IMG/VR virus record: IMGVR_UViG_3300034109_000205
Coordinates: 1-22,575 of that record
Reading direction: 5' to 3' (one strand)
From: a virus
Length of the DNA: 22,575 nucleotides
Position numbers and translations under genes: made by a program
Notes under the pieces: generated by a model
Told to the model about the DNA's origin: nothing
Database searches by the model: none
The model's input: only the letters and a program-made list of their open reading frames with translations
Part shown: piece by piece, positions 1 through 1,374 of the stretch
How positions within the stretch are numbered: the first letter of the stretch is position 1
How the letters are laid out: every line of letters begins with the position of its first letter

Positions 1-97
1 GCTGTCTCGGTATCGCGGCGCTGCCGATGATATCGACCTGCGGCCCGTTGAAGAAATCGTGATGCTATTGAGCGGGAGCGTGGCAGAGGCGGTCTAG
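1..97 (+). CDS. C-terminal end of an upstream gene (partial)
   Basis: An open frame enters from the left edge (codons from base 2) and ends at TAG 95-97. About 31 residues are visible: a charged stretch with DDIDLRPVEEIV, then a hydrophobic/acidic end (MLLSGSVAEAV). No family can be recognised from so little. It runs in the same direction as all later genes and its stop codon lies inside a perfect hairpin (82-105), which fits a real gene end. It is probably an early or regulatory phage gene, but that is only inferred from position. Confidence 0.5.
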   Translation, partial: LSRYRGAADDIDLRPVEEIVMLLSGSVAEAV

Positions 98-105
98 CCT
101 CTGCC
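82..105 (+). terminator. Hairpin over the stop codon, possible terminator
   Basis: GGCAGAGGC (82-90) and GCCTCTGCC (97-105) form a perfect 9-bp stem with a 6-base loop that holds most of the upstream gene's stop codon. No T-run follows, so a classical intrinsic terminator is not complete. It may stop transcription with a factor, protect the RNA 3' end, or be incidental. Confidence 0.4.
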
Positions 106-111
106 GGATAC

Positions 112-452
112 GGCGGTTGGGGCGCGGCAAGGCAAGGCACGGCAAGGCGAGGCAAGGCGGTTAAGGCGCGGTGAGTTCTGGCAGGGTCCGGTTGGGCGGG
201 GCGGTTAAGGTTAGGCAGGGCACGGCTTGGATGGGCACGGCGGTTTAGGCGGGGCTTGGACTGGCGGGGACGGGTGAGTCATGGCATGGCGGTCAAGGTA
301 TGGTCAGGCTGGGCGTGGCGGGGCGGTTGAGGTTTGGCGAGGTTTGGCGTGGCATGGCGGTCGTGGTAAGGCGTGGCATGGATCGGCGTGGCAGGGCGTG
401 GCCAGGCAAGGCGGTTAAGGTCTGGCTCGGCTTGGCGAGGCAAGGCGGTCGA
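112..452 (+). repeat. Phased array of GG-led 5-mers with GGCGGT 9-mers
   Basis: The 341 bases parse exactly into 52 five-base units and 9 nine-base units, with no insertion or deletion. Five-mers begin GG in 50 of 52 cases (exceptions at 175 and 278) and GGC in 35 of 52; typical units are GGCAA, GGCGT and GGCAT. Nine-mers start at 112, 156, 200, 239, 288, 322, 356, 410 and 444. All begin GGCGGT and most end TTAA, TTGA or TCAA-like. Between them lie 7, 7, 6, 8, 5, 5, 9 and 5 five-mers, so every 9-mer interval is 34, 39, 44, 49 or 54 bases. No single reading frame can carry the repeat, because a 5-base period rotates the frame, so it is not a gene. The + strand is GG-rich at fixed spacing and could fold into two-layer G-quadruplexes. 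It sits directly upstream of the annealing-protein gene; an origin, a protein-binding array or a recombination site are possible roles. Confidence 0.9.
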
Positions 453-478
453 CGCAAGCTGATGAATGGAATAGAAAA

Positions 479-511
479 GGCCGGGGGAGATACAAGACCT
501 CGACCCCGGCC
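479..511 (+). other. Stem-loop in the leader of the annealing-protein gene
   Basis: GGCCGGGG (479-486) pairs perfectly with CCCCGGCC (504-511) around a 17-base loop. It lies between the 5/9-base array and the ribosome binding site GGGGAGA (526-532) of the gene at 541. There is no following T-run. It could be an attenuator or an RNA-stability element for the recombination operon. I see no convincing promoter between 453 and 540. Confidence 0.45.
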
Positions 512-540
512 AACGATCACCTTATGGGGAGAAACACAAG

Positions 541-1374
541 ATGACCGACACCAAATCTAATGCACAACCGGCGGCGGGTCAAGGCATCGTCGCGGCGGTT
601 CAAGACGCGCGGCTTGACGCGCTTGCCAGGTTGCGGGTTCCGTTCCCGCCGCACCAGATTTCAAAGCTGCCCAAGCCGACGCCAAAGCAGACAGAAGCGC
701 TAAAGCAGAATATGTCCCTTGGCATCCGGTGCACGGAATGCGGCCAGTGGCATCACAAGGACGCGATCCATCTCGATTATGTCGGACACGCGGCGCTGAC
801 TGACAGGCTGCTTGATTGTGATCCCGGCTGGAATTGGGAGCCACTTGCTATGGGGCCGAACGGTGCGCCAGTCCTGGACGGCGACGGCGGCATGTGGATC
901 AGGCTTACGGTCTGCGGCGTCACCCGTTTGGGGTATGGACACGCTGACGGCAAGAGGGGCGGAAACGCCACAAAGGAAGTGATCGGTGACGCCCTCAGGA
1001 ATGCGGCCATGCGGTTCGGCGCCGCGCTCGATCTGTGGCACAAGGGGGACCTGCACGGCGACGATGAAGGAAGGGATGATGAAGGAAGTCCGGTAAAGAC
1101 AACCCCGGCAACGGCAATGTCGGGTGGGCTTCTACAGGCTTGGGAGGACAGCATCCTAGACAGCCTGCCGGAAAACCCTTCGCCGCGCGTCAAGGCAGAG
1201 GCATTCGCCAAGGCCATTTGCGAAGGTTTCGCAGGCAAAGGCGAGAAGGCGCTTGATACCGAATGGGATCGGCGGAAGAAGTATATCGACGCCTTCCAGA
1301 AGAATTACCCCGACCTCTACGGGCAGGTAGTCGAAGCCTATGAGCGGCGCAAGGCGGAGATGTTTTCGGCATGA
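541..1374 (+). CDS. Rad52/ERF-type single-strand annealing protein
   Basis: 277 residues. Phage annealing proteins coat single-stranded DNA and pair complementary strands during recombination-dependent replication and end repair. The core spans about residues 75-170: IHLDYVGHAALTDRLL, then a GGMWIRLTVCGVTRLGYG strand region, and GDALRNAAMRFGAALDLW, a pattern of Rad52/ERF-like phage recombinases. A C64-x2-C67-x3-H71-H72 cluster just before the core looks like a small metal-binding knuckle. Residues 1-60 are low in order and basic; residues after 172 are acidic, then helical, as expected for a separate C-terminal protein-interaction region. The start is set by GGGGAGA at 526-532, 8 bases upstream. 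It overlaps ninB by an ATGA junction, and nuclease genes follow, so it heads a recombination operon. The family assignment rests on motif memory; ERF versus Rad52 subtype is uncertain. Confidence 0.82.
   Translation: MTDTKSNAQPAAGQGIVAAVQDARLDALARLRVPFPPHQISKLPKPTPKQTEALKQNMSLGIRCTECGQWHHKDAIHLDYVGHAALTDRLLDCDPGWNWEPLAMGPNGAPVLDGDGGMWIRLTVCGVTRLGYGHADGKRGGNATKEVIGDALRNAAMRFGAALDLWHKGDLHGDDEGRDDEGSPVKTTPATAMSGGLLQAWEDSILDSLPENPSPRVKAEAFAKAICEGFAGKGEKALDTEWDRRKKYIDAFQKNYPDLYGQVVEAYERRKAEMFSA

Follow-up and report, generated by a model that had tools for sequence, protein, structure and literature searches.

The question raised by this locus is what a 341-base array of short units, fixed in spacing and variable in sequence, does in the genome of a phage. 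The window, by which we mean the whole stretch of 22,575 bp analysed here, is a linear virus record with portal, terminase and other structural genes, and its terminase has its nearest isolate relatives, at ~50% identity, in Sulfitobacter phages. The array occupies positions 112-452 on the + strand and had been described in an earlier note as an indel-free grammar of five-base and nine-base units. Re-parsing of the window returned that description exactly, in coordinates as well as counts (341 bases = 52 x 5 + 9 x 9, zero indels), with GG opening 50 of the 52 five-mers and GGCGGT opening all nine nine-mers, which start at the GGCG copies listed in Table 1. The two five-mers with another start are GTTCT at 175 and GTCAT at 278. 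This regularity is far beyond chance: the array region has a chain score of 53, while the highest score among 1000 shuffles of it that preserve dinucleotides is 12, and 20 shuffles of the entire window reach no more than 7.

Table 1. Features at the array end of the window, with positions counted from the first base of the window.
Feature	Position	Strand	Basis or remark
Accessory ORF 3' end, last 31 codons and stop	2..97	+	translation LSRYRGAADDIDLRPVEEIVMLLSGSVAEAV followed by stop; full ORF in L024; candidate vap gene
9-bp hairpin GGCAGAGGC/GCCTCTGCC	82..105	+	RNA fold -24.9 kcal/mol, z -2.67
GGCG punctuation, first copy	112..115	+	parse and array-target alignments
GGCG, further copies	156-159, 200-203, 239-242, 288-291, 322-325, 356-359, 410-413, 444-447	+	
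Guide 1, 8 NN: GG-GC-AA-AA-AC-AA-GA-AA	116..155	+	target not found
Guide 2, 8 NN: AA-GC-GA-CT-AG-CC-TG-GG	160..199	+	3 background-like matches
Guide 3, 7 NN: AA-TA-AG-AC-TT-TG-AC	204..238	+	changed copy in L024
Guide 4, 9 NN: TA-GG-TT-CT-GG-CG-GA-AT-AT	243..287	+	identical in L024; matches the YGLLGREMI codons of a Sak4-like annealing ATPase gene
Guide 5, 6 NN: AA-AT-CA-TG-GT-GG	292..321	+	identical in L024; target not found
Guide 6, 6 NN: GA-TT-GA-TT-GT-AT	326..355	+	target not found
Guide 7, 10 NN: GT-AA-GT-AT-TC-GT-AG-GT-CA-AA	360..409	+	last 9 NN without exact viral match
Guide 8, 6 NN: AA-CT-TC-TT-GA-AA	414..443	+	target not found
Terminal nine-mer GGCGGTCGA, close of array	444..452	+	parse
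Stable hairpin in gap between array and annealing-protein gene	478..513	+	RNA fold of 440-540: -30.3 kcal/mol, z -2.62
Single-strand annealing protein gene, phrog_3290	541..1374	+	E 2.1e-56; 3' of array

The window array is more naturally parsed as GGCG + GTYNN(GGYNN)n, in which each nine-mer consists of a 4-base punctuation and a five-base unit, and GTTCT and GTCAT become ordinary GTYNN units of the same kind as those within the nine-mers. Pattern scans of the viral collection for 5/9 arrays returned more than 119 and more than 120 stretches, and in a set of 167 distinct arrays, where the GG of the five-mers is fixed by the search design, 92% of the five-mers have C or T at position 3, and positions 4-5 come close to random (1.95 and 1.99 bits). 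The nine-mers across these arrays are GGCGGTYNN, and since GTYNN is also the commonest departure within GGYNN runs, the nine-mer is read as GGCG + GTYNN; between nine-mers there are elsewhere 5-11 five-mers as a rule. The fixed spacing with variable last two bases, which the earlier note had likewise pointed out, was borne out by the window parse.

Rfam had zero matches in the window or in four further array loci (L024, L104, L191 and L170), hence there is no hammerhead ribozyme there; a contiguous repeat/spacer structure of the CRISPR type was not found in the window array, and no cas family was named for the genes tested near it. Among isolate phages, BLASTN with the array found weak matches only, one of which, in Mycobacterium phage Donkeykong, is a real array locus. 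Literature searches on annealing proteins and repeats returned nothing relevant, and the letters GGCAAGGCAA led to unrelated papers only. TRAP-like RNA-binding rings read (G/U)AG NN with a period of 5. Such a ring was considered for the array and dropped in favour of the grammar of VIPR (Viral Interference Programmable Repeat), which comprises the protein Vipr and its vrRNA (PMC13142463, bioRxiv 10.64898/2026.04.26.720920, 2026 preprint). In the available part of this one preprint, on which the VIPR framework rests, Vipr is presented as an ancestral RAMP protein whose guide RNAs alternate GGY and NN and read DNA with a one-base skip, and VIPR as a phage-borne system, ancestral to CRISPR, that acts against rival phages (PMC13142463).

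We consider it very probable that the window array belongs to a VIPR module of the window phage, where it would be the second of two vrRNA arrays, and that it holds about eight guides, of which guide 4 is directed against the Sak4 gene of rival phages. An RNA element had stood among the candidate roles in the earlier note, and the vrRNA reading agrees with it. The gene context carries much of this identification. Homologues of Vipr occur at 188 of the 241 array loci, versus none of the 73 loci without arrays, and among the 111 loci with punctuated arrays Vipr lies beside the array in 94, the remainder being mostly cut by the contig end. A search that started from the protein recovered 70 new Vipr loci, with an array at most 400 bp downstream in 54 of them, and all 101 arrays in this protein-first set have the strand of Vipr; among array-Vipr pairs in the array-locus set, 412 are on the same strand versus 5 on opposite strands.

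The protein itself points in the same direction. The Vipr family HMM scores 130.9 bits against ALH47069 of Escherichia phage SUSP1, which is flanked by GGYNN arrays; its size and its place in the locus lead us to take it for the published Vipr. The AlphaFold2 model (pLDDT 90) has as its best Foldseek hits in the PDB, among the matches listed, chains of CRISPR Class 1 effectors, mainly Csm and type VII Cas7-like, and the family has a glycine-rich loop with invariant G180, G184, R189 and G198; the candidate is thus predicted to adopt a RAMP fold, of the kind with an RRM core and a glycine-rich loop that is expected of Vipr. A second protein family, the accessory ORF, is found at 125 array loci. 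Its model is confident, a search of the PDB with it gave no significant match, and no relationship was detectable with the second gene in the VIPR locus of SUSP1; it is a candidate for the vap gene of VIPR systems, an accessory gene whose product interacts with DNA.

What the missing part of the module in the window may look like can be seen in its closest relative, L024, whose flanks are mostly 90-97% identical to those of the window where aligned. At the corresponding position L024 carries a longer array (65 five-mers, 11 nine-mers and 3 double units), together with a second array 0.55 kb upstream, an accessory ORF of 162 aa between the two (L024:1947-2435), and, upstream of this ORF and of both arrays, a Vipr candidate of 255 aa with the glycine-rich loop (L024:911-1678). 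The window contig starts inside the accessory ORF and its 22.6 kb hold no Vipr gene, which in the window's own phage would lie beyond the contig end. The hairpin that overlaps the end of the accessory ORF just 5' of the array may be a terminator or an RNA-processing element, and the one that follows the array could mark the 3' boundary of its transcript. Between the two phages guides 4 and 5 are identical letter for letter, guide 3 is an altered copy and the rest differ, all in register; guides have been replaced in blocks, the pattern that gain and loss of guides under selection by rivals would produce.

Whether the variable bases carry information was addressed by taking the NN strings of all fetched arrays and comparing them, with 0-4 skipped bases, with the fetched DNA outside arrays. 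A skip of one alone exceeds shuffled guides, and skips of 0, 2, 3 and 4 are without enrichment. With 8-NN windows over 3.34 Mb, a skip of one gave 95 distinct matches, where four shuffles gave 6-17, and skips of 0, 2 and 3 remained at background. Loci fetched with guide 4 of the window account for part of the excess at a skip of one, but not for the matches in terminase, vipr and major head genes. In the in-frame targets the skipped base falls on the codon wobble position. This constitutes an independent test, on uncultured phages, of a VIPR decoding rule that is known from experiments on few systems.

For the window, the clearest case is guide 4, of which the eight five-mers at 248-287 were searched against the whole viral collection. 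It has 20 viral matches, 17 of them within one gene, in frame and with the skip on the wobble position, and these 17 represent one gene family and were counted as one event; in L295, taken as the representative, the gene encodes a Sak4-like annealing ATPase (phrog_124). As control patterns of equal length, guide 2 gave 3 matches in frame 2, off the wobble frame and judged to be background, and guide 4 in reversed order gave 3 matches without a common gene. Among genome contigs guide 4 has 6 matches, of which 2 are in Sak4 and 4 are chance-like. Targets were detected for one of the eight window guides, guide 4, and for none of the other seven: guide 7 (9 NN) is without a match in the viral collection, the window guides other than guide 4 match Sak4-bearing phages no better than shuffles do, and no close match to any window guide was found within the window itself.

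Guides from other arrays extend the picture to a small set of genes. The Sak4 stretch adjoining the guide-4 site is matched by a guide of L135 at 22/22 bases and by one shared by L077 and L335 at 20/20, and guides of L151, L084 and their relatives match a third Sak4 site at 18/18, within Sak4 loci that were fetched with guide 4 and so do not sample targets at random. One rival gene is thus hit by the guides of several different VIPR phages. Guides of L104 (22/22) and L083 (21/22) match the large subunit of terminase in several phages that themselves bear VIPR, a guide of L269 matches a major head protein gene, and a guide of L330 (L330 8303-8356) matches at 16/16 the codons of the glycine-rich loop of vipr, that of L024 included, and would, to judge from this match, be aimed at rival VIPR systems. 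All of these targets (Sak4, terminase, vipr and major head genes) are in other phage contigs, and the target phages would presumably compete for one host. With such guides, targets can be predicted from arrays, and networks of conflict between phages become computable from sequence.

The same alignments indicate where a guide begins. In six of the seven array-target pairs judged independent (window/L024, L083, L077/L335, L330, the L151 group and L135) the first matching bases are exactly the NN of the nine-mer, with no extension into the preceding guide, and none of the seven matches crosses the next nine-mer to reach the guide beyond it. In the seventh pair, that of L104, the nine-mer NN is mismatched and a 6-base unit stands directly after the nine-mer. 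Since the alignments start at the NN of the nine-mer, it is composed of the 4-base punctuation and the first unit of the next guide, and the window array therefore divides into eight guides of 8, 8, 7, 9, 6, 6, 10 and 6 NN, a division of the punctuated array that was worked out here. Taking the GG at nine-mer positions 4-5 as a guide dinucleotide was tried and does not fit the target alignments.

From these elements a mechanism can be proposed, in which the window array would be expressed, bound by Vipr and used for transcriptional silencing, as in known VIPR. The module would be ordered as Vipr RAMP protein, array, accessory protein and array, and the window array would be transcribed from the + strand as a G-rich RNA holding eight guides, each made of GTYNN and then 5-9 GGYNN units and separated from the next by GGCG. 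The GGY triplets would sit in Vipr subunits, leaving the NN pairs to read double-stranded DNA as NNx NNx NNx, with the skipped third base on the codon wobble. Binding of guide 4 would then silence a recombination or replication gene of a competitor, the Sak4 annealing ATPase.

Other explanations of the array place the function in the DNA or deny it altogether. As a binding or loading site at DNA level, whether a replication origin, a loading site for the annealing protein, pac-like or partition iterons or two-layer G-quadruplexes, the array would have its signal in the GG steps and its variable bases would be neutral. GG every five bases is truly present in the window array, and the annealing-protein gene follows it. 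However, the variable bases carry the information: read as dinucleotides with a one-base skip, and with no other, they match genes of other phages in frame, which speaks against G-quadruplexes and annealing-protein loading as well as against the view in the earlier note that selection acts on the spacing and not on these bases. Nothing was found to support the note's readings as a replication origin, a pac site or an arrangement of helical faces, and its link to the annealing protein did not hold: relatives of the window annealing protein were found at 43 loci, 42 of which lack the array, L024 being the one that has it. The array therefore does not travel with that protein, whose gene is a neighbour outside the VIPR module. 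Arrays moreover follow Vipr and lie almost without exception on its strand, and iterons need have no fixed strand with respect to a RAMP gene; we regard a DNA-level site as very improbable.

Still less probable is a functionless, fast-evolving spacer minisatellite that keeps its register by slippage of whole units alone, even though the arrays of the window and L024 do differ in length, and the differences are of whole units and of guide blocks. Slippage homogenises units, yet here GGY is fixed with NN almost random, two neighbouring guides are preserved to the letter between the phages while those around them are replaced, and specific matches to Sak4, terminase and vipr are found. The absence of Vipr from the contig would also suit a decayed system, with arrays remaining after vipr was lost in the window phage, which is a sub-case of the VIPR reading and not an alternative to it. 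We hold it quite unlikely, as the contig is cut within the accessory ORF and vipr precedes that ORF in L024, whose flanks closely resemble those of the window, and as the array grammar is intact with zero register-breaking indels.

Within the VIPR reading, the window array agrees with the available part of the preprint in its GGY/NN repeats, in the RAMP-fold Vipr gene that adjoins it in relatives, in being phage-borne, in the one-base skip on the wobble position, and in targets in rival phages that include other vipr genes. It differs from the VIPR described there in having GGCG punctuation and a GTYNN start instead of a separate structured 3' tail between guides. Its guides of 6-10 NN are mostly below the 9-16 repeats reported for vrRNAs of other VIPR clades (PMC13142463), where the window count is of NN between punctuation marks and true vrRNAs may overlap. 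Tentatively, and with more doubt than confidence, we propose a distinct VIPR architecture with a code of its own, in which GGCG is the punctuation, GTY opens the start unit, no separate tail is present and GGCGGTY would both close one guide RNA and open the one after it, with guide blocks swapped and aimed convergently at few conserved rival genes (Sak4 recombinase, terminase, vipr). The design may correspond to the 'staggered arrays with overlapping vrRNAs' of the preprint (its fig. S18), and it is possibly a new variant if the punctuation is not already described.

Compared with individual loci, the array resembles the SUSP1 VIPR locus (KT454805, ~27.7-29.2 kb) in its homologous Vipr candidate and same-strand GGYNN arrays; SUSP1 differs in having separate arrays of ~12-16 units, each followed by a tail, and GGCGGT nine-mers were not found there. 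In Donkeykong (Cheoctovirus, gp48-gp50) a GGCNN array is followed by gp49 of the Vipr family (phrog_4652) and gp50 (phrog_15946), which is weakly similar to the accessory ORF, but this array precedes vipr and has no GGCGGT punctuation, and Vipr identity is ~30%. With Class 1 CRISPR effectors that contain Cas7-type RAMPs (Csm3, type VII Cas7) the system shares the predicted RAMP fold, the glycine-rich loop and periodic base skipping in RNA-guided recognition, and unlike them it has no CRISPR repeats and, among the genes tested, no named cas family near the array, and carries NN pairs within the repeat in place of contiguous spacers.

Several further observations concern isolate phages and neighbouring arrays. 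Donkeykong gp48 (L048 2892-3278), annotated as a hypothetical protein, is a GGCNN array read as an ORF, which suggests that array 'proteins' annotated in isolate phages are guide arrays. Proteins of the Vipr family at ~30% identity, annotated as hypothetical, are present in the Gordonia phages UmaThurman, Pipp, ODay and Ecliptus and in the Mycobacterium phages Brocalys, LastJedi, Clifton and Pippy, and such isolates could serve as laboratory systems. L170 (3081-3641) and L191 (2145-2429) have another architecture, with a near-identical tail of ~40-50 bases after every block of ~11-17 GGCNN units, and resemble vrRNA arrays of the SUSP1 type. The annealing protein of the window and its counterpart in L024 (3001-3690) have their first ~19 and last ~85 residues in common around cores of different families, phrog_3290 in the window versus ERF in L024, which amounts to a core swap inside one gene. 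Mycobacterium phage Wanda (L049 3001-3054) has a lone short GGYNN run that starts with GGAGGTCGA in a tail-gene gap of Omega-like phages, oriented opposite to the genes, and this is possibly a single vrRNA.
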